Position numbers and translations under genes: made by a program
Source: Ischnura elegans
Lineage: Eukaryota; Arthropoda; Insecta; Odonata; Coenagrionidae
Reading direction: 5' to 3'
DNA length: 64,000 nucleotides
Assembly (NCBI RefSeq): GCF_921293095.1
Contig: NC_060247.1
Span: forward strand, 53,789,111-53,853,110
The notes under the pieces: model-generated
Databases searched by the model: none
Seen by the model: the letters and a program-made list of their open reading frames with translations, nothing else
Told to the model about the DNA's origin: nothing
Shown: one piece after another, positions 20,266 through 60,665 of the stretch
Layout: each line of letters opens with the position of its first letter
How positions within the stretch are numbered: position 1 is the first letter of the stretch

Positions 20266-20345
20266 CTGATGACGATAGAAAAGGATTCTATCGAAACGTC
20301 GGCAGCGATGGAGATGGAGCTCACCCGGATGGAAACCCGAGAAGA
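20266..20345 (+). ncRNA. Hammerhead-like motif A (canonical core letters)
   Basis: CTGATGA (20266-20272) is followed by one C, then GATAGAA pairing perfectly with TTCTATC (7 bp, 5-nt loop), then GAAA (20293-20296), then palindromic ACGT and C at 20300. This is the order of the hammerhead core, with C17 as the predicted cleavage-site base. Stem I is not convincing because the 5' flank is the AATTGCC repeat. ACCCGGATGGAAACCCGA about 20 nt downstream resembles ACCCGGTGGTACACCCGA after the motif at 46886. Activity is untested. Confidence 0.5.
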
Positions 20346-21231
20346 ATTCACCGCCTAAACATTGCCAGATTGATTTTATTCACACCCATTAAATCAAATG
20401 GGGTTATATTCAAGCAGTTTTCTTTGATGGTTAAAGAACAGTCCTTACCACCAACTTTATGTCGTGAATGCTGGCAAGATGTCTATTCCCTCTCTTTTCT
20501 TTTTTCTCTACTGTTTAAGAACCACAGAGACTGCCTCTGAACTGCGTCGCACGACATTTGCAACTTGCTAGAGGCCTCAGTTGATAGTTTGAGGCGGCGA
20601 GGCGTCTTTGCCATCAAGGCCTCCCGCTTTGGGTTTGACGCTTGACTGCTTATTTAATTGCCAGACGCTTGCGTCGCGGTCGAGTAAATATTATTGCCAT
20701 CGGATGTCGTTGTTTTTTCTTCTATTCAACTGATTAATTTACGATAGTATCCTGTATACCTATTGATCGGAGTAGCGGCGTGCCTAAATTATCGTTACAG
20801 CTTTTTGGTATAATAAAACCCTGGGAAACTCCAGTATATTAAACATGAAATAGAACACATCAAATCATAAGCGAGAATTATGACGTTTGCATCATAACTT
20901 TGATCACAACTCAATGATAGTCAATACCTTTTATGGCCTTATTTCCCATTTATCTCCTTGATGGTATAGCAACAGCAAATACAGCGATGGATGTATAGGA
21001 AAGAAAAATTTTGTTGCTTAATTATGTAAAAGTCATTAATTTTCCCCACATTTAAACATAAATACTTGCTTAGCTACAAGCCCTTGAAAATCAATTGCAA
21101 AATTCGGTTATGACCTCTCTTAAGGAAACAAAATTATCAAGCAAAATATCTTTTATAAACTTATGTCAGTTGTAACTTAAAAATTTCTATAAAATTCGAA
21201 GAATCAAGCGAGATGGAGTGGAATTGATTCA
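20346..21231. other. Non-coding DNA
   Basis: No supported gene. The 93-codon ORF beginning at 20259 runs through the ribozyme-like motif and its flank and has no domain. Confidence 0.5.
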
Positions 21232-21279
21232 TAATGAAACACTGACTTGCAATTTTCCACAAAAATAAAATTTAATTCG

Positions 21280-21321
21280 ACTCGAGTTTCGATGTTACTA
21301 CATCATTTTCAAGGAACAACT
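21280..21321 (-). ncRNA. Hammerhead-like motif B, left arm
   Basis: Exact mirror of the right-arm motif described at 21337-21380. Confidence 0.4.
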
Positions 21322-21336
21322 CCTACAGGAACAACA

Positions 21337-21380
21337 GTTGTTCCTTGAAAATGATGTAGTAACATCGAAACTCGAGTCGA
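21337..21380 (+). ncRNA. Hammerhead-like motif B, right arm (U3/A8 variant)
   Basis: UUGAAAA (21345-21351), one U, stem II GAUGU/ACAUC with loop AGUA, GAAA (21367-21370), palindromic ACUCGAGU (21370-21377) and C at 21378. Compared with CUGANGA, the C3 and G8 equivalents are U and A. Probably inactive or weak as a ribozyme, but the fold is preserved. Confidence 0.4.
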
Positions 21381-21425
21381 ATTAAATTTTATTTTTGTGG
21401 AAAATTGCAAGTCAGTGTTTCATTA

Positions 21426-23435
21426 AAAATTTCTAGCCTGAATTGGCTAAAATAAGCCTGTATGAGGCCTGAATCAACTCTCTTATCTTCATCATTTCAA
21501 CATCCAAAAATGGGCAATTTTTATCCCTCAGTATTAAATCTGCATTTAAATGTAACATGCTCGTATAGTGAAGTCAGTGGATTCGTCTGAGGTTCTACCT
21601 CATTCATTCATCCTCAGGAATTTCCTTCAGATCCTACACTTCGCTCAGTGTTTTATAAGGAAAATAATCATGGCAATCCTACTGGTTATAAGAGCAAGAC
21701 ATAGTACGAGGTCATTTGAATGAAGGCACAGTATAATAAAGAAGAAAACAATCTCTAATCGCTTTGAAAAAATTATACTTTTAAGTTTTGTATTATATAT
21801 CATACTTCTTACACGTTGTATTACTTGTACATATCTTACGCCTGGTTCTGGACTCACAGGGAAGTAATATGATTATAATAACTACTGTGTAATATCCATC
21901 CACAAAAGATAATGTTCTGATTAAACTTCAGTGCATAGAAACCTTACCAAGTATCACAGGCTTAATTTTTCTAAAAGTCATATGATTTAGAACAACATAA
22001 AATATCATATTTACTACTTCCATTGGTAATTTAGTATTTTGCTGGTATCAATTGTAATTTGATGCCATCCGCACTGACATAGTGCTTTTCCCATTACTGA
22101 CTGAACGTTGTATCAGCTATAGAGTATGTTACCACTTACAATTAGCTCAAGTGATTATTTTTTGATTATGCTGCTCAATTGGTTCTTTCAACAACTTAAT
22201 TCTTGGTGAAAAAATTATTAATATTTTGGCATAAATTATTATTCTCAATTGTACGGCATAGATGTATCTGCCTGCAACTTGCTTAAAGAAATAGGCACCC
22301 GGAAGGATGGAATCAATGTGATGAATCATTAGCATCAAATTAATAGGTAAAGTGAGGTAAATTCTACATCTGGTCGTTTAAAAGCTTTTTACTCTCTTAT
22401 GTCACGATTCTGTCCTTTTCATAAATTCCTCCTTTGCACATCCATTTCTTGATATTAATTTCCCTAGCAGTGTCCATTGACCTCAATGCTTGTTGCTGTT
22501 GTTGCAAAGTAGTTTTTTCAGTAAATTTATTTCCAATATGAAACAATAATTGACATTTAAGAGGTTATTTTTGTCAATTAGTAACACTTACCGAATATGA
22601 AATCGTATTTGAACTAGTCTTGGACTTATATTTAAAAGTAGTAAACCGAATTGCCTGCAACCATGTATAAATATCAAAGTTCCATGAAAAATCATTCGTT
22701 ATGTTAAAAGTATTGGTTAAAAATAATATTTCCGCAAATTAATTGTGTTTGCAGGAAGACTCCAAAATTTCTGATTTAAAAAAATCAACTAAAATGATTT
22801 TTTATGATGATAAAAAATGATTTTAATACGATTTTTTCAACCGTATCCAGAATGTTTTCAAGTATTTTAAATATTATTTTTTCTCGGTCGTATTTTCAGT
22901 AAATAGCAGTCACTTTTTATTTTTAATGCACATTCTATGAGAAATCTTTTATTAGGAAAGTAAAGGAGCGGCGTGATTCAAGTACAAAACTAGTTTCTGT
23001 TATATTTGAATCACGTCGTAGAACTAATTGCATACAAATACTTGTATTAATCAATTAAAAAGTAGAATAAATGAGGGGCATAGCATGTTTTAGAATTATG
23101 ATATATTTCTATGTTGCATATGAAACTAATTATCTCATTTTCTTTTTCCAGGTAAGTGAAATACTCTTCTCAGCGTCCCTGTTTAATCTATGGATAATAT
23201 GTAAGTCTTAAATGTAGGTAGTGGGTGAATAACTTTTCGTATTTCTATTTTTCACTGTGAGCTGGATGCTTGAATTCTTATTTTCATATTTCATATCACA
23301 ATTAAAGTTCATGAAAGGATTTTTTATAATGTTTAATTCTTGTTCTAAAGTATGGAGGCTTTTGCAGCGAGAAAAATTGATACCATATTTCATTAACTCA
23401 TTCTTAACTTGTGGTATTCTATTATAAGTTTTTTT
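21426..23435. other. AT-rich non-coding DNA
   Basis: No gene, structural RNA or repeat identified. ORFs are short and AT-biased. Confidence 0.5.
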
Positions 23436-23474
23436 TTGTCATTTAACTTTGACTTATACCACTAATTTTTTACA

Positions 23475-23520
23475 TAAAGCGACCCGGGTTTCGATGATTA
23501 ATGATCACCATCAGGTATAA
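23475..23520 (-). ncRNA. Hammerhead-like motif C, left arm
   Basis: Read on the minus strand: CUGAUGG (23514 to 23508), a short imperfect stem II, GAAA (23492 to 23489), fully palindromic ACCCGGGU, then C. The last core base differs from CUGAUGA. Confidence 0.4.
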
Positions 23521-23554
23521 ATAATTTATTATTCATTAATAATTTTCAATAATT

Positions 23555-23600
23555 TATTCCTGATGATGATGATTTTTCATTGAAACCCCGGTCGATTTTA
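23555..23600 (+). ncRNA. Hammerhead-like motif C, right arm (intact core)
   Basis: CUGAUGA (23560-23566), one U, stem II GAUGA/UCAUU with a UUUU loop, GAAA (23582-23585), ACCCCGGU as an almost self-complementary stem III, then C at 23593. All invariant core bases are present; stem I is only 2-3 pairs. With motif A it is one of the two best candidates in the window for retained self-cleavage. Confidence 0.5.
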
Positions 23601-23639
23601 CAAAAAAACTAGTAGTATAAGTAAAAGTTAACTACTAGC

Positions 23640-26550
23640 CAAGAAATCTAATACCTACAATATTTACCTACGTATTTACACTGAGAAAATACATATACTT
23701 CACTTCTACCGTTTCAAATAATTACCCACCTCACAAGATTGTCATCGTTATTGCGCACGCCCTTCTACCTGCCGTTACGCCTGAGTGTTGTTTGTCTCCC
23801 GCTGTAAGCCGGCTCGCTTCAACTGTCATTCCAACGCTAATGCTAGACAAGAGCTCGAAACACCGACGCAGTTGACGGCTCAACCGCGCTGTGATTCACT
23901 TCACGAGCGACTGCGCAGATAGCATGCCCTCTTGGCACGTTTTCGTGCGAAGGGAGGAAAAAAAAAGACTCCCGTTAAAATTCCAATAGCTGTTAGGCTA
24001 AACTTTCTTATGAACTCAATGCCAACTTCATTTCATATCGTTGGTAAGTGCGCTAGCTGCGGCAGTTTGTTACGCGTATTTATCAATAAATGCATCGGCT
24101 ACGTTTCATGCACTTGCTCCATTTTGCTACCTCGTATTCGTATCAGTAGTGGTCGTATTGGACATGAAGAAAGAGAGGGAAGTATAAGGTAGAGTGAAGC
24201 TCGGCTTGGGAAAATTATAATTTAGATTCTACAAAAACACAGACTATATTTACTAAAATCTTCAAAACCTGCGAGTCCAAGTGCCTTTCCCGAAAGTACA
24301 TTTGGTATTTGTTCTCAAGATTATTTTATTCTCTCTAATCGAGTGAATCAAAAAGTTACGCTGATGACATGTACCTTTTTCTTCAACGACTCACTAGTGG
24401 TAACATCTTCCAGAATCCACAAGCCTTTCCCAACGTTTTTAGTATTGAGGCATAAATCCAACTATGTTCATTTACGCCAGAAAAGCAAGGTCCACAAAGT
24501 CGACCAGGGAAGAATATTTGGAAAGAAATAAATAGATGAAAACCGGTGTCTATGCATGAAATATTTAGCCACATGACTCGTAGAATTCCATGATTTTAGT
24601 CCACTCACGGCGGATAGAGTAACGCCGAAGGGCTTTCTGCTACAAAAATATTGGCATAAAAAATAAATTATTATAACCTCTAAAAATGCAAGTAAGCAGT
24701 CTTTTCATCATAGCTAAGTAATGGTAAATTATCGTAATTACACGTCATTACCCCAACAAAAGTCACGAGCAAAGATTCCCATGCATATTTTTTCATCAAT
24801 CATTAATGCTTACAATTTCGGACGCAATTGAAGATTTTTTACGTAAATTTTGAACTTTCCATTCCTTACTAAAATCAATTTTAACTCGATTCATGATAAG
24901 ATATTCTTTAAGCTTTAAGTAGCTTATAGCTTTAACTTATCCTTCCGACAATTATCTCCATTTTGTGGATTGGGAATGCGATGCAATCCTGTTCTTGCTT
25001 GGACGAATTTTTTTTGCGGCAAGGAAGGCCGAGTCAGGAAGCGACTGCGTGAGATGAGGAAAATGATGAGAACATTTAGGCGAGGCGTGAGTCATGGTCT
25101 GGAGGGATCGTCCACCTCGCCCTCCTCGGCCACCCAGTCTCCCCTTCACAGCTTCCCTTCCCCCCCCCCCCCCCCCCCCAGCCTCTCCACCGCCTCCACC
25201 GCCTCAGCAGCATCGCCCATGCCTCGCGTCATCCCCAGACCTAGTCTCGCGAGCCCTCTAAATTTTTCTCCCTCCTTCCCCACTAACAGAGGACCACCAC
25301 CTAAGGTCATGCGGAAAAAGTGGAGGGGGATGTGAAATGAGCCGAAAAACCCTCCTCATCTCGCCCCGGACCCAAGGCTAATCCTCCACCGGCGAGCTCG
25401 TGCGCGAGCCTGGACGGGCATCGTCCGTCTTTTGTTTCACAATCGGCCCGCGTCTCGGGAGATGAGCCTTGAGGAAAAATGCATGCCTCCCCTTTTTACT
25501 TCCCCACGCATTCGTAAGTCAAGGACCGAGGGGGAAGGGGGATGAGGGGAGGGGTAGCTCCGGAAAGAAAGAAGAGTTCAATGGTCCCACCTCTCTCCTT
25601 CATCTTACGTGCCATCCCCTCCACCCCCCTCCTTCCCTCCTCCTCCTCAGTCTTATCTTCGAAGCAACCCACTCCTCTCTCTCCAGTGTACTCATCTCTC
25701 GAGGTCCTCCCAACTTCTCTAGCGTCCTACGTAAGCGCGCTTTGCATGATTGCTCGCATTAAGATTCAAAGCCCTCCGCAAGCAATTCGTGCGTCACGCC
25801 CATCTAAGCTCTGTATCCCTCGCGACGGCATACCTTCCTTCTAAGGCTATAAATGGAAACTTGCTGTGTGTCGGCCTTCCTCGGAATTGAGGGCCTGCGT
25901 GTCTTTGAAACGATGAAATAATAGGTTAAGGAAAGACATTTAAATCACATAATAACAATCCTCTATTAATTAACTGATTCCGTGCGATGATTTATAATAT
26001 TTAGCGCGAATTATCTGTTTCGCCTATAGCCAGCTGTGACATAAGAAATATTGTGTTAAATTTTTTGCTGCAATAAACCCCTAGTGAAGTTGTCAAATTC
26101 GATATATAAGTGCTTCATACAAATTTTTCTTCTCACAGAATTTCTCCAAACATCATTCCTGCTTCGCTTTGCATAACCTATCATAACCCTCACAGGTATT
26201 ACATACATGAATTAATAAATTTAATAATAATGACAACAATTACAGTTAACATAGCTTTTCAACCAATCTATGGTAAATAGGTAAACTCTATTTACTTTTA
26301 TTTTAACCATTTATTGACACGTTAATCTTGGAAATCCTATGGAAATGTTTTGCCTGAACCATTTATTATGTATTCCTGATCTTATGCTTTATAGGGATTC
26401 TTAATGAATCCTCATTGATGTTGCTTTCCATTTCCCACTAAAATTTTGTTCATGTCATGTATGCGTTGTGAGGTTTTTTTTTCGATTCCAGGCGTTAGAC
26501 TGAAAAATAGCCCTTTGAGGATAGATAATGGAAAATAGTATATTGCTCGA
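23640..26550. other. Non-coding DNA with a CpG/pyrimidine-rich island
   Basis: 23740-23940 is moderately CpG-rich. 24960-25850 is a larger island with a C18 run near 25160 and long C/T tracts on the plus strand. Overlapping ORFs on both strands here are low-complexity. I see no domain, splice structure or repeat family. Confidence 0.5.
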
Positions 26551-26552
26551 AA

Positions 26553-26734
26553 CATAATAAAAGGCATACTGAGTTGTATGTTCCACAAAAGTTAAATTGG
26601 CCGACCCAGGTTTCGACATGTAGGAGCTGTACATATGTACACCTATAATTATACACCTTTGAAAATGACATTGAAATCTGGGTCGGTCAATTAAATTTTT
26701 GTGGGACATACAACTCAGTGTATCTTTTATCATG
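26553..26734. repeat. Foldback locus D with decayed hammerhead-like motifs
   Basis: Arms 26553-26620 and 26669-26734 are imperfect inverted repeats, sharing for example ACTGAGTTGTATGTTCCACA. The plus motif has UUGAAAA (26659-26665) and GAAA (26673-26676) but has lost stem II. The minus motif keeps GAAACCUGGGUC but has lost its 5' core. The DNA 3' of the right motif (to about 26785, including TTCCACCAAATATCGCC) is homologous to the flank of motif F at 28655-28730. Confidence 0.75.
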
Positions 26735-26799
26735 CTCCCTGTCTCCAAATTCCACCAAATATCGCCATCCAGCCTTAAGTTGGTATTTTACTCCTTATA

Positions 26800-27125: not shown

Positions 27126-27255
27126 GAGGAGGGGTTGAGATAAAGATGAATGAGAGTTCTTGATCATCTCTACAGTCTCCGGATCAACTTTGAAGAAGTT
27201 CATTATAACAAATAAAAGGATTAACTGTGTATTTATCCACCAATTTATTCTCGCG

Positions 27256-27295
27256 GTACAACTAGTTTCGACGCAGCGTCGTCATTATCAGGTGC
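27256..27295 (-). ncRNA. Hammerhead-like motif E, left arm
   Basis: Minus strand: stem I GCAC, CUGAUAA (27291 to 27285; G8 equivalent is A), stem II with GACG/CGUC, GAAA (27269 to 27266), palindromic ACUAGU, U, then stem I GUAC. The stem I halves pair except for one position. Confidence 0.45.
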
Positions 27296-27450
27296 AAGGG
27301 TAACAAACATAAAATACGTCCTTATACATAAACAAATTATGCGATTTCAGTGGGGGAGGATGAAGGTAGGTGGAAGTTGGGTCTTCCTCCCCCACTGAAA
27401 TCACATCATTTTCATGATATATAAGGACGTATTTTATGCTTGTATCCCTT

Positions 27451-27490
27451 GTACCTAATGATGACGCCGCAGCGTCGAAACCGGTTGTAC
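27451..27490 (+). ncRNA. Hammerhead-like motif E, right arm (all three stems)
   Basis: Stem I 5' GUAC (27451-27454), CUAAUGA (27455-27461), U, stem II GACGC-CGCA-GCGUC (27463-27476), GAAA (27477-27480), palindromic ACCGGU (27480-27485), U17 and stem I 3' GUAC (27487-27490). The geometry is complete, but G5 is replaced by A, which should inactivate a hammerhead. Confidence 0.5.
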
Positions 27491-27670
27491 CTCGAGAGTA
27501 AATTGGTGCATAAATGCATAGTTTTTCCTTTCATTGATTATGAGGGAGAGGTCTAAGGGAGAAATTAATGGCCGAAGAACTTAATCATTTACGTACTTCT
27601 GATGTTGATTTAGCATAATCGTAGTTAGCGTTGGTGAGGCTTTAAAATAAGAGATGGTTTATTTTTTCTA

Positions 27671-28485: not shown

Positions 28486-28654
28486 GGATCCTCCCTTGGA
28501 ATGCATCTCACATCGTTGAAATCGTTCTTATTGCCTCATCAAAACACAGAAACGTTCAAGTCACCAAATCACATTGAGAACACCGCTTCAAAGTGTTTTT
28601 TTATAGATGTATTCGTTAATATCTATTCCGATAGTGAGAGACAACATTATGATT

Positions 28655-28800
28655 CTTATCAACTTAAGGGTGGATGGCAATACTTGGTGGAACTTGGTGA
28701 TAGGAAACATAACAAAAGATACACTGTTGCACGTTTCACATAAGTTTTTATAACCGACCCAGGTTTCGACATTACGCCATGTCATTTTCAAGGTGAATGT
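28655..28800 (-). ncRNA. Hammerhead-like motif F (single) with family 3' flank
   Basis: Minus strand: CACC, UUGAAAA (28791 to 28785), U, stem II GACAU/AUGUC with a 6-nt loop, GAAA (28767 to 28764), self-complementary ACCUGGGU, C, then GGU pairing with ACC as stem I. The 3' flank (28655-28740) is homologous to 26714-26785 beside locus D. This is the U3/A8 variant, with no partner arm visible. Confidence 0.5.
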
Positions 28801-29384
28801 ACACAAATTGAAGAGCTTATATATTTTCTTTTACCTATGATTCTTCTGCATATTTTTTAAGTGATTTTATAATATGAGTATTAATGGTCAAGTGAGGCTG
28901 AATTTAAGATTATCATTTGAAAATTGCCAGAAAATAGTACTGTAAGAGTGTACTTACTTTGCTCGGAGTTTCCCTCTCCGTGTGAGGAAAAACCCTTTGC
29001 CAAGTAAGCGCTTGTATTTACTCGTACCTAAATGTACCGAATTTCCATTTTAACGTTAATAAAAGTTAGACTACTTTGGAATTAAATATGGGAGTGAAAT
29101 CTAAAATTTATTTGAAATCAGTGCATCACATATTTCTTTTGCATTGACGTACATTTGCGTTTTTAAGTAATTTTTCTTATAAAATTTTATGTCCTTTTCG
29201 AATATAAAGTGAAAGATATGTGTTGAAAATTAATTAAAATAATGCTCTCTGTTCTTTTATCATATTGTGTCATTTATATAGCTCACATGAATTTGTGCGA
29301 CCATGGGTAAGGGAAGTCATACCATTGCTAATTTTTATTCATGAAGTAGGGTCAATGTAATAAGTTGCTCCATTTATAGTGTGC
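28801..29384. other. AT-rich non-coding DNA
   Basis: Nothing recognised. Confidence 0.5.
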
Positions 29385-30578: not shown

Positions 30579-30715
30579 AAATGTAATAACTTTGTAATTC
30601 CACAAAAATTAAATTCTGTAAAATTAAATACGTGGTACGTCATCATCTGCTGAAGACTTACCCCGTCGAATCCCAGGAGGAATAATTTTTGTGGAGTTAC
30701 AAAGTTTATACATTT
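30579..30715. repeat. Foldback locus G with a decayed hammerhead-like centre
   Basis: AACTTTGTAATTCCACAAAA on the left is mirrored by TTTTGTGGAGTTACAAAGTT on the right. The TTCCACAAAAATTAAA flank is shared with loci B and D. On the plus strand CUGAAGA and GUCGAAUCC remain inside, with GAC/GUC able to pair. Confidence 0.65.
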
Positions 30716-34560: not shown

Positions 34561-37150
34561 TTTTGCATCTTTTTCAAGGAAATGGTTGAATGGCTGAAGA
34601 AAACTATTTCTTTGTCATAAATTATATTTCATCCACCGAATAGGGTGGTTTCCTATTATTTTTTCATTGCCTAAATCGAAAGATTATTGCTCCTGGAGTG
34701 CGAATTTCACGCTCTTAGATTTTCGAATGACGATATCTATTTTTCGCGATTAAATGAAAAGTGAAAACTTTCAAGGGCGCGAAAACGCAACGGCTAAGTA
34801 TGAATGCCAGGAAAACTCCGCGTGACGTCGTTTTGGTTCCCGCTGCCGCAAGTGAGGTGACCTTTGGGCGAGGCTTGAGCGCTGAGACGACGCAGGCTGC
34901 TAGCAGGTAGCTGAGTACCCTGCTAGCAGGTAGCGCTTTGCTTAAATAAGGATTATTATTCCCCTATCAAGCGAAGGAAACTTTCCGAACTCAGGTAATT
35001 TTAATGTGTGATTATTAAGAGATGTTTCCCTGAGCTCTGCGCCTTATGCATGCATTGGTAACCTCAGACGATGTATAACTCCTATCCTCTCGTGTAGAAA
35101 CTAGGTCCCTGTGACGTCACGTGGAGTGGAATCGCATGGGCGCCAATCTGGCCTTTTTCAAATGAGGATAAAATTTGACCCTTGCCATTCGTCTAAACTG
35201 GGATTTCTAAAACCAAATAATTTGTATATTATGAATACACTAATGGTGGGTAAGGAATTGCAAACAATTCATTTCGTTTTCTTTGATGAAGGAAACTACA
35301 CTACCATATTATTAAATTGCTCTCATGGGAATGTGTGAACGACCCTATCCGATGCATCGGTATGAAGACATGTTTGAACGGGAGGGATTGCGGCGCGCAG
35401 AAAACTTGTCGAACCCGAAGACGACGGGTTTGACCCGCGGGCCGAGGCGTTGCGGTTCCGTGCGGGAGGGGAGGCGGGGATGAGGGGCGGGGGTAGGGGT
35501 GGAGTGCAGCATCCTGTTGCGAGACCGTTGACGCCATCCGGGTATCCGATCAGTGGCACTGACTCTCCCGCCTTGCCATAAAACCTCGCTCAGACACCTC
35601 CGTGAAGCCGATGGATCACGCTTCTGAGGCTCCTGGTGTTACTAAGCCAACCTCACACCGCTGCTTCCTTCGGCTGGGTTTGACGTCCTCCTTGGTGAAG
35701 GGAGTATTGGCAGATATTTCATACTTCGGCTCTTCCTTTTTCCAAGCTAGAAAAATAAAAAATAAACTTTGCTTCATGCACAATAAATTATATTGTCCAT
35801 TCGTTTCGTTCCACTATATCATCATCATGACTAAATACGAACGGTGCGTTTGGAAAGTTAGTTCTGTTTTTATTATTCTGCGCTGCGATCGTAGTTCCGC
35901 GCATGAGAGGCTGTTACTATGTGTCAAGGAGAACGCTACAGTGAATATGCTACAGTGAATCGAAACTTGTCGACGATAGAAGTTACTTTGTAGGAAGCAA
36001 ATTTTTATTTTCCTAATTTAAAATCGTGTTTTACGATGTAAAGCCTCAACCATTTAGTGATCCCTTTATCCACTTTAAACTCTGAGGAGATCTCGCTCGA
36101 GCACTGTGAAATTTGGCGTACTTTCATCTGCTAAGAATTTACAATCCGCAAAAACCTGTAAAATACGCTCGGATTTAACCGTTGGCAATTTTATTGCAAA
36201 TGAACTTATTTCCTCTGTTGTGAAATTTTGTATAGGATTGCTTATTTTAAGTTCGTTCCATACCATCTCTATCAAAAGTGCATGTGTACGTCTATTTGGA
36301 GACAAATGAACTTGAGCATAAACAAAAATATATTATAAAAAAACCAATTCCGGTCTCTTAATATTTGAGTTATAACATTAGTCATGGTGACTTTACATCG
36401 TAAAAAATTCAACGTTAATATTAAAAATTTTCTACTCAGAATTACCCTCTTTATCCTGAAATGTAGACTAGCATCTTTGAATCATTGTTTTAGAGGATGG
36501 TCCTCGCTACATTGCTCACGCCTTACCCTCGAGTCCTGCTTTCCCATGCAATCATATGCATTACTTTGCAAATGCTACTTAAATGTGGAGTAATCAGTAT
36601 TTTAAGTCAGCAAATAACCACTCTCCAATATTGATAGATATTACTATTTCCAGATTTTTATGCAATGGCATCAACGTTTGAAATCTATAGAATTTCAAAC
36701 GCATTCCTATGGACATAAAAAGTTTTAATGCAATAATTTAAAATATTATAAATCACTGAAGGTATAGATGATGGATCGCAGTTATTTTCACCTGAAAACG
36801 GAAATCACATAAAATTAGTTTGCAATGCATTTATAAAAACAAGAATATTTTTAGGGTTAAGGTTGATGCTGAATGTAAAATTTATTTCCATCATATACCC
36901 TCCCCTGGAGAGATAATAAATAATGTTAGCTCTTTTAATTTGTGAGGTTTTTTTATTTTTTTTTAAGATATTCATTTTCCCGAATATTATCCTATTATTT
37001 TGCCATGGGCTAACAGAAACAGTTTAAATAGAGATAGAATAAAAGTTAATTATAATTTTAATTTTTAAGCTCATAATTTACGACACTTTGGTTTTCCAGA
37101 AAAAAATTCAAATTTATTCGTAATTAATTTCATTTTTCATAGGCACTTAC
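34561..37150. other. Non-coding DNA with a small CpG-rich patch
   Basis: CTGCTAGCAGGTAGC is repeated at 34897-34911 and 34920-34934. A third perfect TGACGTCA lies at 35112-35119. 35360-35720 is CpG-rich with purine/pyrimidine asymmetry. A 10-bp perfect hairpin (CGTTTGAAAT arms) lies at 36675-36701. No gene supported. Confidence 0.5.
35112..35119. promoter_or_regulatory. CRE-like palindrome next to an E-box
   Basis: TGACGTCACGTG combines a perfect CRE with an overlapping CACGTG E-box. Regulatory use is inference only. Confidence 0.35.
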
Positions 37151-37163: not shown

Positions 37164-39559
37164 CCCTTACAAATCGGCCGGCGAAGATGGAATTTTCCCG
37201 GCACTTTTACAAGAGGGACAGGAGCTGGTATTACTCCCTATGGTAAGGATATTCCGCTCCTGTCTTGCATATGGGTATATCCCAAAGAAGTGGAGAGCTA
37301 CCAAAGTTGTCTTTATCCCAAAACCAGGGAAGACGGACTACACTTTGGCTAGCTCATTTAGGGGCATTAGCCTAATGTCTTTCCTGCTGAAAACGCTGGA
37401 GAAGATAGTTGACAGATATATCAGAGATGGTCCCCTTAGGGACCATCCTCTGCATCCACATCAGCACGCCTACCAGAAGGGCAGGTCTGTGGAAACTGCA
37501 CTCCACAACCTAGTCTGTAGGATAGAGAACGTACTGGAACATGGTTTGTATGGGTTTGGAGCGTTTCTAGATATAGAAGGAGCCTTCAACAATACATCCT
37601 TTGAACAAATCTGCCTGGCAGCGGACAGGCATGGAATCCATACACACATTGTGAGATGGATCAGATACATGCTTGAGCAAAGATCTGTTACCGCCCGTCT
37701 TGGAGGGAGCTCGCTGACGGTGACTGTGACAAGAGGGTGTCCACAGGGTGGGGTGTTGTCCCCATTACTGTGGAATATGGTAGTCGACAGTCTGCTGTCA
37801 AACCTCCACAATACCGGTGTATTCACACAAGGATACGCTGATGATATCGTGATCTTGGTTTCAGGCAGATTCCTAGACACAGTATGTGAGCTTTTGCAGA
37901 AAGCCCTGGACAAAACAGCCCAGTGGTGTTCCGAAACAGGACTCTCTGTTAATCCAGAGAAGACCAATCTTGTTCTCTTCACTAAGAAAAGGAAGAGAGA
38001 GGGATTCACTTCCCCCTACCTCTTGGGAAAGAGACTAACACCGTCCTCATCGGTCAAATATCTTGGAGTCACTCTAGATTCCAAGCTCAACTGGAGAGAG
38101 CACATGGATAGCAAACTCAAAAAAGCATGTGCCTCATTATGGACATGTAGAAGAGCCCTTGGTAAATCATGGGGCCTTCAACCCAAAGCCATTAGTTGGC
38201 TATACAATGTAGTGGTGAAACCTAGTTTCCTCCACTGCTCAATTGTATGGTGGAAAAAGACCAAACAAATTACTGTTAGGAACAAGCTTAACCACCTACA
38301 AAGAATGGCCTGTATGGGCATTACAGGAGCAATGAGGACGACTCCAACCTTGGCGATGGAAACTCTGCTGAACCTTCCCCCACTTTATGTGGAAGTAGAG
38401 GTTCATGCAAGAGCCACGTTATACAGATTGAGAAATCTAGGTATGTGGTACGACAGAGGAAATTTCTCTGGACACAGACAACTGTGGACGGGACTGAGGG
38501 AGTCTAGCACCATTTTTGAGATGGGGTCGGATTCCATGATGGCGACGTTCAATTCTTCACCGCCTCTTTTTAAAACCCATTTCCCAAACAGGGAATGCTG
38601 GGCAAAAGAAGAGGGGAAAGCCCTTCATAATGGAGCCCAAGTGTGGTTCACCGATGGCTCCATGAAAGAAGGGAAAGCAGGGGCAGGCGTTTACAGCCAG
38701 TCCCCCCCTAGGAGCATACATGTTCCCCTAGGAAGATATGCCACAGTGTTTCAGGCAGAAAGTTTTGCTATCCTAACCTGTGTGCACGCTATTGAGGAGA
38801 CAGGTCTCTACAAGAGACCAATCCATATATGCACTGACAGTCAGGCTGCTCTAAAAGCCCTGAACTCACCTTGGTGCAGATCTAAACTATTGGCTGAATG
38901 CTACAAGGCTCTCAATATTCTGGGCAGCCGCTGCAAAATAGAACTTTTCTGGGTACCGGGACATTCAGGTATCACCGGAAACGAGAAGGCAGATGAACTG
39001 GCAAATGCCGGCGCTGAACAGAATCCAATTGGCCCAGAACCAATTGTGCCAGTTGCCCCATCAATTGGGATGGCTGCAATTAAAGTGTGGGGAGCAACCC
39101 AACACCTAAAGATCTGGCGGGAAACACCGGGTTTACGTCAGGCAAAAACCCTTATAGGAGAGATCTCTCCTAGACTCGAGAGAAGACTTCTTCTTATGAA
39201 CAGAAGTCAAGTGCGGACGGTAGTAGGCCTGCTTACGGGTCACTATCACGTAATGAGACATATGCACCTGCTGGGGATAACAGACTCAGATAGGTGTAGA
39301 TGGTGTGAGATGGAAGAAGAAACAACCACCCATCTAATATGCGAGTGCCCCGCAATCATGAGGACTCGATATAGACACCTGGGCTCACCTTTCATAGAGC
39401 CCAAGGAAGTAAGAGATCTTCCCATTGGGGACCTTTTGTCCTTCGTTAAGGACATTGGCCTCTATGGATGATCCATTATCGGTGGTTAGCACAATGGACC
39501 TATAGGTCTAAGTGCCCTGGGAGCTGATCCCCCACCGCATAAACTAATCTAATCTAATC
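37164..39559 (+). mobile_element. 5'-truncated non-LTR retrotransposon (RT + RNase H, I/LOA-like group)
   Basis: A ~2.4-kb insertion flanked by 13-bp duplications. The 5' end is truncated inside ORF2, removing ORF1, the endonuclease and the N-terminal RT. After the stop codon comes an ~88-bp 3' end ending in CTAAT/ATCTA repeats (39544-39563) rather than poly(A). 5' truncation, variable-length duplications and a microsatellite tail are hallmarks of target-primed reverse transcription. The intact reading frame and perfect duplications suggest a recent insertion. Presence of RNase H excludes the typical Jockey and RTE clades and favours the I/LOA group; that clade call is inference. Confidence 0.93.
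37165..39471 (+). CDS. Reverse transcriptase-RNase H (LINE ORF2, N-terminally truncated)
   Basis: The reading frame is open from the truncation point (coding KSAGEDGI, 37171-37194) to TGA at 39469; the first in-frame ATG is at 37240, giving 743 residues. Numbering from that Met: RT motif A FLDIEGAFN with catalytic D111, motif B GCPQGGVLSPLLW (167-179), motif C YADD at 199-202. A thumb/connector follows (about 240-460). RNase H spans about 467-592 with catalytic D472 (TDGS), E507, D533 (TDSQAA), H575 (PGHSG) and D585. A C-terminal CCHC-like C686-x2-C689-x8-H698-x4-C703 lies just before the end. It copies its own RNA onto nicked chromosomal DNA in the nucleus. The endonuclease and ORF1 are missing, so this copy cannot mobilise alone, though its protein motifs look intact. 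Antisense ORFs here are shadows. Confidence 0.95.
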   Translation, partial: PYKSAGEDGIFPALLQEGQELVLLPMVRIFRSCLAYGYIPKKWRATKVVFIPKPGKTDYTLASSFRGISLMSFLLKTLEKIVDRYIRDGPLRDHPLHPHQHAYQKGRSVETALHNLVCRIENVLEHGLYGFGAFLDIEGAFNNTSFEQICLAADRHGIHTHIVRWIRYMLEQRSVTARLGGSSLTVTVTRGCPQGGVLSPLLWNMVVDSLLSNLHNTGVFTQGYADDIVILVSGRFLDTVCELLQKALDKTAQWCSETGLSVNPEKTNLVLFTKKRKREGFTSPYLLGKRLTPSSSVKYLGVTLDSKLNWREHMDSKLKKACASLWTCRRALGKSWGLQPKAISWLYNVVVKPSFLHCSIVWWKKTKQITVRNKLNHLQRMACMGITGAMRTTPTLAMETLLNLPPLYVEVEVHARATLYRLRNLGMWYDRGNFSGHRQLWTGLRESSTIFEMGSDSMMATFNSSPPLFKTHFPNRECWAKEEGKALHNGAQVWFTDGSMKEGKAGAGVYSQSPPRSIHVPLGRYATVFQAESFAILTCVHAIEETGLYKRPIHICTDSQAALKALNSPWCRSKLLAECYKALNILGSRCKIELFWVPGHSGITGNEKADELANAGAEQNPIGPEPIVPVAPSIGMAAIKVWGATQHLKIWRETPGLRQAKTLIGEISPRLERRLLLMNRSQVRTVVGLLTGHYHVMRHMHLLGITDSDRCRWCEMEEETTTHLICECPAIMRTRYRHLGSPFIEPKEVRDLPIGDLLSFVKDIGLYG

Positions 39560-42639: not shown

Positions 42640-43075
42640 ACGGCACGTTTCGGCTTATAGACATGGGCGTACCCAGCGAGGGACGGGGGGTGGGGGTCAT
42701 CTGTCCCCCTTCTAGAAGCAAAATTCGCCTAAGTCTTTTAGCAAAATCAGTACTGAATTGAAACTAAAGTATCCAACAAATATTCTTTAAACCCACGAAT
42801 AATGATATGTATAAGATATGTAACTAAAATAAAACTATTTTTTCAAGGAAATAATCTCAGTAACTAATAAAGCGCTGTTATAATTTTCTTAAATGTTGCT
42901 TTCAACCACCTTTTCCATGCTAAAATGTCACAACCTGGCTTGCCCCCCCCTCCTAGACCATGGCTTGCCCCCCAAGACCATGGCTTGCTCCCCTAGACCA
43001 TGGCTTCCCCCCCCCCCCTAGTTATGATCCTGGGTACGCCCTTGCTCATAGAGCCAACATCTGGTCCAAGACATC
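42640..43075 (-). ncRNA. Hammerhead-like motif L split by a MITE
   Basis: Minus strand: CCAGATGTTGGCTCTATGAG lies right of the MITE and ATAAGCCGAAACGTGCC lies left of it. Removing the element and one 8-bp duplication restores GGC-loop-GCC directly before GAAACG, the same layout as the other motifs. The insertion point is thus the stem II loop. Confidence 0.5.
42662..43044 (+). mobile_element. GGGCGTACCCA-ended MITE, copy 2 of 3, with 8-bp target duplication
   Basis: 383 bp. Ends CATGGGCGTACCCA and TGGGTACGCCCTTG. Flanked by CTTATAGA (42654-42661) and CTCATAGA (43045-43052), an 8-bp duplication with one difference, which fits hAT-type transposition. Shares TAATAAAGCGCTGT, ATAATTTTCTTAAA and GCTAAAATGT with copy 1. 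The right half is expanded by three AGACCATGGCTTG(C/T)CCCC units (42955-43015). Confidence 0.85.
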
Positions 43076-43210: not shown

Positions 43211-43261
43211 GATATATAAATGTGTTATTCACGTCGCGTGAATCACGTGTACTGCAATGCC

Positions 43262-43300
43262 TTGTACCAGATGATGTCTCTGTGTGCCGAAACTCATCCT
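43262..43300 (+). ncRNA. Hammerhead-like motif H (decayed)
   Basis: CAGATGA (43268-43274), a weak stem II region, then GCCGAAACUCAUC. The core differs from CUGANGA at the second base. Identified mainly by its context and GAAAC block. Confidence 0.3.
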
Positions 43301-43339
43301 ACGATCTAAAGTAATTGTGGAAACGTTCAACTGTCTATT

Positions 43340-43365
43340 ATTTCAGTATGTCGAACTTCCACTGC
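43340..43365. repeat. 26-bp repeat shared with 50389-50412
   Basis: TATTTCAGTATGTCGAACTT plus CCAC is the reverse complement of 50389-50412 with one mismatch. Unclassified. Confidence 0.6.
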
Positions 43366-43519
43366 ATCAGGCCTGAATCAGTTAAATTTATCGAGTGGTA
43401 CCTACCTCACAATATATGCTCGAGTTGTATTCATCAATTCTCATGGAGCTAATACTCGATGCCAACGGTTTCCTCGAGAATGGACAAGTGCAACTCGGGC
43501 ATGTACACTGCTTATTGTA

Positions 43520-45343: not shown

Positions 45344-46440
45344 GGTGGGTTGGAGTCAGTGTATGAGGAGGGTGCCTAAGCAGCAGGCGATATCCATCGG
45401 ATAATTAAATGAGTTTGATTTATCCAAAATACGTAGTTATTACACGATGTATAATTTGACGTTACATAGATATCCCATTTGTAACATCCACGAGAGTTGT
45501 AATACTGACGTTGTAGAGATATACCAGTTGTAATATCCGTGAAATTAAAAAATTGTTATCCCAAACAGTTTCCATAGGTATCATTGAATTTGAAGGCCTA
45601 TAGAATTGGAGAGCAAATTTTTTTGCTTGCATATCTGGCGATTACAAAAAATCATAGTAATCACACTCATTATCAGCTCATTAGCTACTGCGAACATATC
45701 TAAAAGATGTTGTAACATGGACCTTCATGTCCACTGTTGGACATTGCTGCAATGTTATTTGAATATTTGAGAGATATCCATCACACATTAATTTTATTAA
45801 CATGGATTTTGCACGGATGTAATAAACGCCAACAATGTTGCGGTATGTTTTTGGGATATTGATTGCTACTTGGGTGGGGTCGTAATGGTTTTTCCGAGAG
45901 GAATGGTGCGATGCTTGTGCAAAGCGGGGTGGTTAATGTGTCTTCATAATGGCGGCTGAGGTTTTGGAGAACGAACGCCTTTGTTCGGTCGCGGCTGCGA
46001 AAGCGTTGAGACGCGCCGTAATGGTCGTGGTTCGTCCTGGCCGAGAACATTTCTCGCTGCGCTGGGATGTCGAGGAAGTCGTCCCCATGGAATGGCGGGA
46101 TAACTCATCAGTGAAAATTGGACCACGGCAATTTTGTGTTCTGCAGCCTCCGATTATTACGTTAAACCTTCTTCGCGATCCCTTATGCGTTGGTTCGTGC
46201 CCGGTCTAGAATGTGCTGCCGTTTGAATACCCAGAATGCCGCTGAATCACCTTGAATGGCGGGTGGAGTGATGGGACTAAAATGATTTTCGTGGCTTGGA
46301 AGGGTCTTCTGGAGAAAGGTGGAGATAATTACAGTTATGATTTACATTTCAATTATGTCAGACACCATGTGGATACAGCTACGAATATTTATAAAATCGT
46401 TTCAGGCTTGACTTGGTGGAAGTACGATATATCCATATTA
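45344..46440. other. Non-coding DNA; one weak coding candidate
   Basis: At 45949 an ATG in context ATAATGGCGGCTGAGG opens an 86-codon ORF in a moderately CpG-rich stretch (45940-46200). No domain, no continuation and no convincing splice donor were found, so it is not called as a gene. The rest is AT-rich. Confidence 0.4.
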
Positions 46441-46590
46441 AAAACTATACGATAATTTTCACACTTTAATATAATATTACACTATCGACCATGGCTTCGA
46501 CATTCCATGTCATTTTCTAGGCTTGAAAATGTCTTCGAATGTCGAAACCATGATTGGCAGTGGAAAATTGGAAAGTAAAATTAGTAGTTT
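46441..46590. repeat. Foldback locus I with two outward hammerhead-like motifs
   Basis: CATGGCTTCGACATTC on the left mirrors GAATGTCGAAACCATG on the right, and the pairing extends with gaps to 46441 and 46590. The plus motif has UUGAAAA (46523-46529), GAAA (46544-46547) and ACCAUGAU plus U. The minus motif has GAAG and GCCAUGGU plus C. Both are degenerate. Confidence 0.7.
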
Positions 46591-46840
46591 TTATCTTGGA
46601 CCTACGAATACTTCACAGAGGAGCCATAGCTGCACGAGTGGATTAATTAAAAGAGGTTTATTTTATCACCTATTTCATCTAAAATAAACCTTATCTAGAT
46701 GTCCTAGTATTTATAAATAATAATTAAAAAAATAAATTCACAGGTAAGGAAAGAAAGGGATAGGAACATAAAATAGAAAAAGGATGAGGATTTCTATTAA
46801 ATGGCAGTGAAGGCTGTTCGGCTGCTCCAATTTCCTTCAT

Positions 46841-46883
46841 GGCTGCCGACGTTTCGGGGTACGAGTCGTACTACATCCTTCAG
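46841..46883 (-). ncRNA. Hammerhead-like motif J, left arm
   Basis: Minus strand: CUGAAGGA (one base longer than CUGANGA), stem II GUACGA/UCGUAC, GAAA (46855 to 46852), palindromic ACGU, C, then GGCAGCC. Confidence 0.4.
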
Positions 46884-46928
46884 CCCTGAGGATGGAGTGC
46901 CACTCGTACCCCGAAACATCTGCAGCCA
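46884..46928 (+). ncRNA. Hammerhead-like motif J, right arm
   Basis: CUGAGGA (46886-46892), U, a stem II containing GAGU/ACUC, GAAA (46913-46916), then ACAU and C. The stem III palindrome is broken (ACGU in the partner arm). Confidence 0.4.
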
Positions 46929-47056
46929 TTAGGGAGATTACCCGGTGGTACACCCGAACAGCCCTCACTACCAGTGTACGCCGGGAAAGCATCAGATCTT
47001 TTTTCATTTCTATTATATGTTCCTATCCCTTTCTTTCCTTACCTATGAATTTATTT

Positions 47057-54807: not shown

Positions 54808-54880
54808 ATGTACACAACATCCTGCGAGAAACCTCTAGGAATTTTGGCATGGGGTGTTCAATCACCAGCATTTCTTCCAA
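54808..54880 (-). mobile_element. Non-LTR retrotransposon 3' terminus (fragment)
   Basis: The minus strand shares GATTGA(A/C)CA..CCATGC and CTCGCAGG with 33060-33140. It lies downstream, on the same strand, of the SGNH-like relic at 55150-55575, but no link between them is shown. Confidence 0.6.
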
Positions 54881-55149: not shown

Positions 55150-55575
55150 CCATGATTTACTATCCACATATCAACCCTGCACTCTGCCCAACTCTCTGAC
55201 CTAAAAAAGGCTCGAATGCGATAATGCTCTAAGATTTTACTCTCTTCACACCTAGCTGACTCGGGCGTGTAATGAACATTAGAACGGTCCAGAGTGTTCC
55301 GACACAATCGGATTGCCGGCTCCAGATCAACGAAGGAGGGTGGGATATCCTCGAGGAACTGACGTAGCCTCTGATTTATACCCTCTACTCGGCTTCAAAT
55401 CAGGATGCATCGATCGATCTTCGGAATTAGATTAAAGATCTAAAGCTCCATGCCGACACCCGTGATCCCAACCAATCGATTCACTTTGGTATTCAGATCC
55501 GCGAGAGGATATACAATTTTCTGAGATCCACAGAAGGTGGCATCGTTGACGCCGACATGCCGACAGTATACCCGA
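55150..55575 (-). pseudogene. Decayed SGNH-hydrolase-like domain, probably transposon-borne
   Basis: One minus-strand frame reads HVGVND at 55559-55542 (SGNH block III, GxND-like), then about 40 residues, a stop, IPKIDRCILI, a second stop, SRVEGINQRLRQFLED, FVDLEP and finally DRSNVHYTPESA at about 55289-55254 (block V, catalytic D and H). Two in-frame stops and no visible block I serine mean it is dead. SGNH esterase domains occur in ORF1 of CR1-like LINEs and in other arthropod elements, so a mobile-element origin is likely. The frame continues open to about 55100 with no domain known to me. Confidence 0.6.
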
Positions 55576-57859: not shown

Positions 57860-58160
57860 CATCGTCTATGTTCAGCAATCCTAAGATAGGTTTGACACCG
57901 CTCCCCACTCAATTCTCCTATCAGCTAATCTTTGCACACCTACGTATTTATTTTCTTTCACATCTTTATTTACCTGTTCCATTATTTTGTTCGAGATCTA
58001 CCTTTTCCGTTCTTGCCATCCACTTGTCCCTCGACGATTGTCTTAATCAGACCATCATGTCTCAAGATGTGGCCTATAAGGTTGTTCCGTCTTCTTATTA
58101 TGGTTTTTATGAGGCTTCTCTTCTCTCCTACTCTTCTTAGGACTTCCTCATTACTAACTC
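57860..58160 (-). pseudogene. RTE-like LINE 3' end, copy 4 of 4
   Basis: The minus strand encodes VSNEEVLRRVGEKRSLIK, RRRNNLIGHILRHDGLIKT and VEGQVDGKNGKGRSRTK without a stop in this block, the best-preserved copy of the C-terminal segment. It then decays toward its 3' end at about 57870. The 5' end is truncated at about 58160. Confidence 0.85.
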
Positions 58161-60038
58161 CACGTACGGTGTAAAAATCCGGGTATTTGGGAGTTAGATT
58201 TTTTCCCGGGTTACTACCCAGATTTCTTACCTGAAATGGAAACACTGTTAATTTAAATCACTATTACTCTACTATTACGTCACTAACAGGGGAGCTTGAT
58301 AATTTGCTCTCGTTATCATGCAAGATATTGTAGATTTCCATTTTTATGATGGGTCACTGGATTACATTAATTAAATTTAACATTTTACTTTATATAATAC
58401 TTGTGGACTTGGTTCATCTTTGAAACGTCTAGTTTGAGTGTCTTATTTCAATTTTCCTATTGCTTTTAAAATTTCCTCGTTTTCTATTCCAAACTGAATG
58501 ACTCCAAACTGAGCTTGTATTTTTAAGCAGAGTTGAATACGTTACGGACTTATTAACAAATGATAAAGATTATATAAAGATCCACCATTGTATTTTTAGC
58601 TCTCACTCACTTTTGAATGCATATATTATAAACTAAAAAGATTTCCAGCTTCAAAGGCTCGAACAAAACAGAAAACACCGAATAATTTAAACATTTTTGA
58701 ACGTCGATTTATATATTTCATCTCTTTGTAATTTAGTTTGCGATCCGAATTTCCGCCTTTATCTTTTGGTTAAACATTTTGTGCTAGGGACTTATTCACG
58801 TGTGAAATCCCTTTATGTTATGCCATGCCATCTTCATGAATTTATTTTATCAATGATCATGCACCATAGTATTCATGAATATAACCCGGTAATGAGTCCA
58901 TATTATGAGCTATGTAACTAATTGCATCCTCTTAATTTCTATTTTATCCTCAATTTTTTCGAGGTTTACGGTACATGCCATCGTTACATGACGGCCATTG
59001 AATAAAAGCTCCATATTTTATTGGAAAATTTTCTTTCCTTTTTTGAATGTTACAATATTTTTTCACGCTTTTTTGTTATTGTTTTATTTTGAAGTTAAAG
59101 AAACAGTTTTTTTCTATTGCCAAAAGCTTTAAAGTGACCATGAATCAGAAGAAGAGATTATGGTTTCCAATAATAATGATTCAATGAGCGAGTGACCTTT
59201 CTCTTCTCATAATAGTTTTTCTGTAAGTAATTAGTAATATAACAAGTGCATATTTTTATCCACCTTGCATGAATGTCGTGTATTTTCTTAGATATTTGTC
59301 GGTGAAACATTTTGGAGCCCTGGTCTGTAAACATCTAATGGCATTCTTGCTATTTAAATGCTTAGCCATTTTTGTACAACAATTAATATCACCAGTAATA
59401 TTTTCTCTGTTCGCATTAAATATTCTAATCTGCCTTCCAATGCTCAAAGGCATCCCGATGATGGAGAACAATATATATTTATCTCACTGAAATGACCTGA
59501 GGGCGTTATTAATATGAACAGACGTTTTTACATTCACTGTACACATTGAATGTTACTTCCAATTCCAATGATAGAAAATAATTTGAAAGGTCAGTTATAA
59601 TTCCGTTTCTACAATTATATTATGAAAAATAACATATACGGTACCTGTATTAACCGTTTTAGATCAGTTTTAGTTTGATTAAAGCGTCTATTTCGACTAA
59701 ATTTTATGAACTACTCTCCCGTTTAAAAATTTAAATGAATTAAATTTTATTCACTATCGTTCGAGAAAAGAAAAATGCACCAAACAGGCTTGGGAAATGC
59801 GTAATTTCTAATGCTAGCCTGATCTAAAAATATTGCTTATTCATAAAAAAAAAAATATTTACCTACTAATCTGCCACGGAAGAGCGAAACTTTATTTGCC
59901 ACTGAATTTTTAAAATTATTTTTATACGATTCTCTCCCTATTAATCGTCCTTTATTGCGGCATATTTGGAATCTTATTTTCAACTAATATTTCACCATCG
60001 TGTAGACTGAGGGTGTCTCCTTGTACTCCATTCAAGTA
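58161..60038. other. AT-rich non-coding DNA
   Basis: No gene or repeat recognised. Confidence 0.5.
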
Positions 60039-60046
60039 GCTGGCAC

Positions 60047-60304
60047 CAGGGGCGGATCCAGGATTTTTTCTGGGGGGCGCAAGGGTCTTACTGCTCTTCT
60101 AATATTTGAGATTAAAAACAAAATGCAACAATTACTGTAGATGATTTCCTCTTTATTTTGATATGAAAGTTTTTAACATAAAATTAAATGATGGAGGCTC
60201 CGTACTACACAAAATAAAGCAAATTTAATGATAATCGTACCTACTAAAAATCTTTTCTGGGTTTGAAGCGTCTGGGGGCATGTGCCCCTGTAAATCCGCC
60301 TATG
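60047..60304 (+). mobile_element. hAT-like MITE with exact 8-bp target duplication
   Basis: 258 bp. CAGGGGCGGATCCAGG at the left is partly mirrored by AAATCCGCCTATG at the right. GCTGGCAC flanks it exactly on both sides (60039-60046 and 60305-60312). Non-coding. The 8-bp duplication fits hAT superfamily transposition. Confidence 0.85.
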
Positions 60305-60312
60305 GCTGGCAC

Positions 60313-60612
60313 GTTCGAATTCCCGTGTCACTCAGATGAAGCTTAATTGTGCGCTGAAAGTTTTATAGGAGCTGTGCAGATTTTCTCTGTATTTAATTTC
60401 TCTTTTAATAATATACTGTGATGCTGGTTCTTGCAATGGCTGATGAAGCTGGCTTTCAATGAATGATGTGACACCGCCTACTTCATTCTTTTCTGCATTT
60501 TTATTATTATTTCTTCCAATCTAATGGAAGTCCAATCGATTGTCAACGAGTTTACTTTGTAGAAATTCATGGTAAGAAGATAGAAAAGCTTTTAATAATT
60601 CTCCACCCTACT
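60313..60612. other. AT-rich non-coding DNA
   Basis: Nothing recognised. Confidence 0.5.
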
Positions 60613-60614
60613 TC

Positions 60615-60665
60615 ATTTCCCTCAACCGGTTTCAACGTATACACGCGTCATTTTCAAGAGGTCTG
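60615..60665 (-). ncRNA. Hammerhead-like motif K (U3/A8 variant, stem I intact)
   Basis: Minus strand: CCUC, UUGAAAA (60657 to 60651), a U, stem II with ACG/CGU, GAAA (60633 to 60630), palindromic ACCGGU, U, then GAGG pairing perfectly with CCUC. All three helices are formable. Single copy without a mirrored arm. Confidence 0.45.

Follow-up and report, generated by a model that had tools for sequence, protein, structure and literature searches.

Fold-back loci with hammerhead-like motifs in Ischnura elegans as probable truncated ends of Penelope-like elements

Introduction

A window of 64,000 nucleotides from Ischnura elegans (Odonata; assembly GCF_921293095.1, contig NC_060247.1, positions 53,789,111 to 53,853,110 of the forward strand) contains twelve loci, A to L, at which a first-pass annotation had read a motif resembling the hammerhead ribozyme, in several cases in both arms of an inverted repeat. 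The observation is real and is explained for most of the loci. They are very probably 5'-truncated insertions of several endonuclease-containing families of Penelope-like elements (PLEs), reduced to the pseudo-long terminal repeat (pseudo-LTR). A type I hammerhead-like fold, whose palindromic stem III can close only between two copies, was shown within the pseudo-LTR of families A and B, and partly for C and H. With the same scope, many insertions were shown to lie head to head, with target site duplications (TSDs) of 9-16 bp and a tail of 30-50 nt from the start of the open reading frame (ORF) at one end only.

Minimal type I hammerheads of PLEs were reportedly described by Cervera and De la Pena in 2014. 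A work by Lunse, Weinberg and Breaker (RNA Biol, 2017) is said, by its title, to treat small PLE hammerhead variants cleaving as dimers. Reviews likewise state that PLEs carry conserved minimal type I hammerheads without helix III, which possibly cleave as dimers (PMC6155905, PMC7761336). Both the presence of hammerheads in the pseudo-LTRs of PLEs and the inverted arrangement of pseudo-LTRs have been published.

Hammerhead-Like Motifs in the Window

A strict scan of the window, defined by the core, a stem II of at least 4 bp and GAAA, identified 9 sites, compared to 2.7 expected from 30 Markov shuffles with a maximum of 6. When a palindrome of at least 4 was also required, 6 sites were obtained versus 0.63 expected (shuffle maximum 2); five of these belong to loci B (both arms), E, F and K, and the sixth is an unlisted site at 5136. 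The block following GAAA, read from A15.1, was palindromic in 12 of the 17 window motifs read, and with one motif per locus in 7 of 10, versus 1.5 on average in the shuffles (P=0.0002). The palindromes were ACGU, ACUCGAGU, ACCCGGGU, ACCUGGGU, ACUAGU, ACCGGU and others, with C or U as H17. The inverted, outward-pointing arms reported for B, C, D, E, I and J, and the arms of G with their decayed centre, were found again by repeat search or BLAST. No match to the Rfam hammerhead families was obtained in the window, either at gathering scores or at E<=10.

A covariance model was then built from 8 PLE-linked motifs of the same 1.72-Gb genome, with no window sequence included; its training set contained other copies of families A, B, C and H, and none of F, E, K, J and I. 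At E<0.01 this model recovered nine of the twelve loci, with E-values to be taken as rough: B (2e-15, 1e-14), C (3e-10, 6e-10), F (1e-8), E (4e-7, 1e-5), H (8e-7), A (1e-4), K (3e-4), J (0.0015, one arm) and I (0.0065 in one arm, 0.1 in the other). The coordinates and the order of motif elements given in the first-pass annotation were right for most loci. The three loci missed by the model in the window were D, G and L. At D and G the motif is decayed and was not confirmed, G being called by neither of two covariance models; the arms of D are related to F in spite of this decay, as identified by comparison of the arms.

Chance resemblance in AT-rich DNA is an explanation that may apply to locus L, which probably is such a case, and to the weak model matches at 12649, 35788, 63448 and 44643, which remained doubtful after inspection. 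As a general account it is extremely improbable: the shuffle controls of the strict and palindrome scans speak against it, A, B and D belong to genome-wide repeat families, and it is refuted for A, B, C, E, F and H.

The unlisted site at 35788-35838 (minus strand) gave E 2e-4 with the PLE-trained model and is doubtful because of its poor stem II. The site at 12649-12702 (plus strand) reads CCGAAGA-T-AGCGGG..CCCGCT-GAAA-CGTC, with E 0.015 and 0.025 with the two models, and may be a decayed copy that was overlooked. Viral contigs were also scanned for the pattern, which gave 2 and at least 120 stretches; this line was abandoned, since a palindromic block was seen in just 2 of the 132 motif instances read.

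Conservation of the Core and Covariation of the Stems

The stems were compared in a set of 14 motifs, consisting of 5 window arms, 7 PLE-linked motifs and 2 genome sites without ORF link, in which B1/B2 and E_L/E_R are related pairs. P137 and the arms considered to be decayed (C_R, D, I, J, H, K_R, G, L) were omitted; a set of 22 rows restores C_R, D_R, I_L, I_R, J_R, K_R, H and P137. Stem I, which had played no part in the choice of the motifs, was paired at 47 of 56 positions, compared to 32.2 with reshuffled 3' strands (P 1e-4). In the 22 rows the value was 64/88 versus 47.4, with none of 20,000 shuffles as high, in the 8 PLE-linked rows 26/32 versus 19.0 (P 0.005), and with one row per family 43/48 versus 28.1. 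Stem II was paired at 54 of 56 positions and stem III was palindromic in 14/14, both stems having been partly selected for. The hammerhead-like core with a dimer-type palindromic stem III, as proposed in the first-pass annotation, is supported by this covariation.

The pair between core positions 3 and 8 was U-A in 7, C-G in 6 and C-A in 1 of the 14 motifs (Fisher P 0.005, families not being independent), and in the 22 rows 11, 10 and 1. This pair is described as covarying in nature, with U3-A8 hammerheads active (PMC3088659), and a literature search under the spelling C3-G8 found nothing. In all 14 motifs an extra nucleotide follows A9 (T in 12, C in 1, A in 1). The scan of PLE 3' regions had permitted 0, 1 or 2 extra nucleotides, and all five matches had 1, while the scan of the B loci had required it. 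Canonical type I core letters (CUGANGA...GAAA...U-H17) are present in A, P58 and others, but none of the 14 motifs has a core free of the insertion. No mention of a post-A9 insertion was found in the available parts of the literature searched, which did not include Cervera 2014 and Lunse 2017. In Anolis carolinensis the start of the ORF of the PLE Poseidon PAc lies at stem II, and C3 and G8 precede the start codon (PMC11167929); this start would fit A9-U-G10.1, that is, a matching insertion. Because of the insertion in 14/14 and U3-A8 in 7/14 motifs, the motif is termed hammerhead-like here.

It is conceivable, though rather doubtful, that the motif has been kept as a cDNA or RNA hairpin with a role in reverse transcription, in the start of translation or in the binding of protein, and that its likeness to a hammerhead is a dead relic. 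The constant inserted nucleotide would agree with this, as would the altered U4 in family P45, whose ORF has 849 open codons, and the published finding that insertion in vitro does not depend on the hammerhead of one PLE (PMC11167929). However, the unpaired core letters, the 3-8 pair and the complementarity of stem I are conserved across families, which would be needless for a plain hairpin, and activity is reported for U3-A8 hammerheads, as mentioned above.

Association of the Units with Genes of Penelope-Like Elements

Loci fetched from the same genome carry L-numbers. Units related to A, B, C and H were identified elsewhere in the genome downstream of an ORF with similarity to GIY-YIG or PLE proteins. 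The family A unit (about 90 nt) has 67 scored genome matches, many of them 100% identical and many present as outward pairs; in L132 and L133 it lies 3' of an ORF in which Pfam detects a GIY-YIG domain (E 1e-4 and 2e-5), with a gap of about 50 nt in L133. Pfam PF01541 scored above its cut-off in L132, L133 and L159, and slightly below in L161.

For the family B unit 64 scored genome matches were obtained. With the ORF of L161, 136 matches were scored out of 13,216 first-look candidates, comprising several families with open frames of up to 849 codons. Among 30 loci fetched with the endonuclease protein, the B unit was found downstream of the endonuclease in 25, and was absent from L170, L187, L194, L195 and L196. 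The stem III block among these loci is ACTCGAGT or ACTTAAGT, a double change that preserves the palindrome. PF00078 and PF01541 occur in homologues of the B ORF, PF00078 together with YRYVDD in some of them. The top-scoring named relative of a PLE protein from this set comes from Ischnura elegans (54% identity across 73% of the query), and a sequence search of the PDB with one PLE homologue gave no match.

Window locus C belongs to the family of the L137 PLE, to whose 3' end it is 78% identical across 147 nt. The ORF of L137 matches PLE proteins (tblastn E 1e-23), although Pfam calls no endonuclease in it, and in the C-type motif of L137 both A6 and A9 are changed. Another hammerhead-like motif, TTGATAA-C-stem-GAAACGTC, was seen by eye at 5560-5610 (minus strand) of L137, between the end of the PLE ORF and the C-type motif, so that this element may carry two motifs.

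Window locus H is 78% identical across 66 nt to L198 and L204. The hammerhead unit of family H/P45 lies 5' of the ORF start MSNFHQLKPESVELI in L206 (from C2:68125344 on) and 3' of the endonuclease in L198 (from C2:68128384 on). In this family only, the pseudo-LTR was thus found on both sides of the 849-codon ORF, its two ends being read in L206 and L198 and its middle lying outside the fetched sequence. In eight further PLE 3' regions (L198-L205) the scan found the motif in four (L199, L201, L202, L203); by eye, stem II has just 3 bp in L200 and L205, and L198 and L204 have A in place of U4.

In the window, six loci (B, D, E, F, H and I) continue into a PLE-type ORF start of 14-18 codons, designated the tail. 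A six-frame search of the window with an ORF-start peptide pattern, devised after some of its window matches had been seen, found five places, all of them listed loci (D, E, F, H, I). The variant ORF start of locus B, MNQFHSISLDSSNF, is identical to the tails of genomic B copies, and in L151 it continues as IRNASIAVQAKLYLKLSVKCR, matching the ORF of L206. The earlier statement that no Penelope reverse transcriptase (RT) or GIY-YIG is visible holds within the window, where tblastn with seven PLE proteins gave no match at E<0.01, whereas copies of PLEs from four families exist elsewhere in the genome. Since matching ends adjoin PLE genes there, the fold-backs do not appear to represent a new mobile class. 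The little-described non-autonomous class that had been suggested from the divergent layout is not supported, head-to-head pseudo-LTRs, a TSD and a tail at one end having been published for PLEs (PMC3846280).

Head-to-Head Pairs, Duplications and Tails

In families A and B, a TSD of 9-16 bp was identified for 28 of 33 outward pairs, a count that includes L131 three times; three of the five misses are inner mispairings. The tail of the opposite end then lay at 28-33 nt in family A and at 36-46 nt in family B. Because this test required one end near zero, the tails were recounted by sequence alone in 36 chosen loci (14 A, 22 B) in which both units apparently reach the outer end; single, cut and duplicate loci were omitted, for example L123, L126, L134, L135, L141, L145, L149, L154, L156 and L157. 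An outward pair was present in 35 of the 36, with one tail in 33/35, none in 2/35 and both in 0/35. An independent choice of start sites would yield one tail in at most half of the pairs, and the excess over this has a P of 2e-8. L188, L189 and L191 resemble duplicates of one event; with three loci dropped, P is about 1e-7. This one-tail rule would imply an ordered insertion on two strands.

In family A, each pair has one end extending as a 30-nt tail. In longer copies a TATA-like stretch and CATCGGCC were seen by eye to precede the unit, and stem I is intact there, since CATCGGCC pairs with GGC-AG-CGATG beyond the predicted cut site. The arms are 4 nt apart in five pairs at four loci (L125, L129, L131 twice, L142), with CATC-AGGGCC-GATG or its mirror as the joint, in which a stem I strand and the core form a hairpin; the spacers of other pairs reach 2 kb. 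This joint fits either snap-back self-priming, which has been proposed for PLE palindromes (PMC3846280), or the annealing of two inward cDNAs, and the extension of both strands by the Anolis protein (PMC11167929) favours two priming events. In L131, two near-identical head-to-head pairs were found 1.46 kb apart, probably by local duplication after insertion.

Inverted arms with TSDs would also be expected for the terminal inverted repeats of a DNA transposon, in the manner of fold-backs like miniature inverted-repeat transposable elements. This origin can practically be dismissed: the TSD length varies between 9 and 16 bp, a tail encoding an ORF start is present at one end alone, the inner end points differ between the arms, and the ORF-bearing relatives encode a GIY-YIG endonuclease.

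A non-autonomous fold-back or retrozyme class, in which small hammerhead RNAs circularise and are copied by PLEs in trans, is very unlikely. In its favour, an ORF is lacking in many of the A and B copies fetched, and mobilisation of metazoan retrozymes by PLEs has been proposed (PMC7761336). In L137, L140, L151 and L160, units separated by 116-307 nt point in the same direction, with one unit cut in L137, L151 and L160; such pairs would be compatible with a retrozyme-like side branch or with partial tandems of PLEs. However, such tandems also predict same-direction pairs, outward pairs dominate the fetched loci, and the units are the same as those at the ends of PLEs in their family that carry an ORF, with the common tail and TSD. 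The only complete pair of this kind was observed in L140 (679-922), in which two full family A units of one orientation are separated by 157 nt, a retrozyme-like spacing, and lie beside an inverted unit.

Comparison with Known Systems

The closest parallels to the present loci were identified in the Pen families of Adineta vaga (PMC3846280), which show head-to-head pseudo-LTRs with a palindrome at the junction, an optional 31-bp tail at one of the inverted pseudo-LTRs, and first ORF residues encoded by pseudo-LTR and tail, all as found here. The TSDs are 8-10 bp there and mostly 12-16 bp here; many of the copies fetched here consist of the pseudo-LTR pair alone, with a prominent hammerhead motif, and the word "hammerhead" was not found in the available text on these families. 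Poseidon PAc of Anolis carolinensis (PMC11167929) is a GIY-YIG PLE with a pseudo-LTR hammerhead near the ORF start, as here; two RT start sites bound its tail, and both target strands are cut and extended. In contrast to the present loci, where they are common, head-to-head dimers do not appear in the main text of that paper, and the ORF starts about 46-54 nt past the predicted cut in families B and H, compared to stem II in Poseidon PAc. Metazoan retrozymes (PMC7229834) share type I hammerheads and non-coding copies with the loci described here, but form direct tandem repeats with circular RNAs of about 170-400 nt, whereas outward inverted pairs dominate here.

Proposed Route of Insertion

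From the structure of the products, the following route can be proposed for the PLEs. Transcripts of tandem elements would hold two hammerheads pairing through stem III, with a predicted cut after H17. The PLE protein would cut the two target strands at positions about 13 bp from each other and prime reverse transcription on each, one priming starting from the distal start site, which would give rise to the tail, and the other from the proximal site. Both cDNAs would extend inward, often halting near the hammerhead, and would be joined by short complementarity, in family A by CATC..GATG of the stem I strand and the core. With such a joining of inward cDNAs during insertion, the short fold-back would be a by-product without a life cycle of its own.

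Several points weigh against this explanation of the loci by PLE insertion, or against parts of it. The order of priming and the joining step were inferred from the anatomy of the products. Two outward pairs lack any tail, and the same-direction units described above, both complete in L140 alone, have to be accommodated. The link to a PLE ORF was established by genomic copies for A, B, C and H, and by the ORF-start peptide alone for D, E, F and I; for J, K, G and L, no such link was found here. No convincing TSD was found at the window loci C, D, E, G, J and K. Hammerhead activity is uncertain, because the core has an inserted nucleotide and is unrecognised by Rfam. In Anolis, moreover, cleavage is not needed for insertion in vitro, and the hammerhead cuts solely with the protein present (PMC11167929).

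Possibly new are the insertion after A9, the switch between C3-G8 and U3-A8, the retained palindromic stem III, the covarying stem I and the one-tail rule. It may tentatively be suggested, at less than even odds, that these PLEs carry a distinct hammerhead subclass, with an obligatory insertion between A9 and stem II, the 3-8 switch and a loopless palindromic stem III leading to two-copy cleavage, in which the complementarity of stem I and core sets the cDNA joint and each of the two RT starts, distal and proximal, is used once in an ordered two-strand insertion. The proposed new class very probably consists of the ends of a known one. This PLE-rich genome provides a test bed for the role of the PLE hammerhead and the origin of head-to-head insertions, and the count of one tail in 33/35 pairs directly constrains any model of PLE integration.

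Loci of the Window

The positions of the loci are listed in Table 1.

Table 1: Hammerhead-like loci of the window and their associated features (positions within the 64,000-nucleotide window).
Feature	Position	Strand	Description
Locus A	20164..20366	+	One PLE pseudo-LTR unit at 20266-20355; core CTGATGA-C-stem II-GAAA-CGTC; stem I lost
Locus A TSD	20164-20174, 20356-20366		11-bp repeat TAAACATTGCC, flanks unit and filler
Locus B	21177..21435	.	Pseudo-LTR units head to head
Locus B TSD	21177-21189, 21423-21435		13-bp TTAAAAATTTCTA
Locus B tail	21190-21232	-	Single tail; encodes MNQFHSISLDSSNF
Locus C	23383..23646	.	Head-to-head pair; left arm reaches 23383 on the tail side
Locus D	26553..26782	.	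Head-to-head pair, decayed
Locus D tail	26732-26782	+	Right end; encodes MLPVSKFHQISPSSLKL
Locus E	27159..27541	.	Head-to-head pair
Locus E tail	27159-27203	-	Left end; encodes MNFFKVDPETVEMIK
Locus F	28648..28845	-	Single unit and tail
Locus F tail	28658-28710	-	Encodes MFPITKFHQVLPSTLKL
Locus F likely TSD	28648 and 28836		10-bp repeat TATGATTCTT
Locus G	30579..30715	.	Inverted arms like outer parts of B and D (by eye); core unrecognisable
Locus L	42640..42740	-	Weak resemblance; H17 would be G; found by neither covariance model
Locus H	43258..43401	+	Decayed pseudo-LTR; relative of the PLE in L198/L206
Locus H ORF start	43348-43401		Encodes MSNFHCIRPESVKFIEWY
Locus I	46379..46613	.	Head-to-head pair
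Locus I likely TSD			12-bp repeat with one mismatch, CTACGAATATTT/CTACGAATACTT
Locus I tail	46391-46436	-	Left end; encodes MDISYFHQVKPETIL
Locus J	46730..47056	.	Head-to-head pair; core CTGAGGA; no PLE ORF link and no TSD found
Locus K	60614..60790	.	Hammerhead-like unit and decayed outward partner; no PLE ORF link and no TSD found

At locus A, a filler of about 90 nt (20175-20265) with repeated TTTAATTGCC-like words lies between the TSD and the truncated unit, and looks as if it had been copied from the target site during joining.

A further ORF of 743 amino acids is located at 37240-39471 (plus strand). It shows no similarity to the PLE proteins used as window queries; it has an RVT_1 domain (E 2e-37) and an RNase H domain (E 2e-14) and is part of a non-LTR-type retrotransposon.

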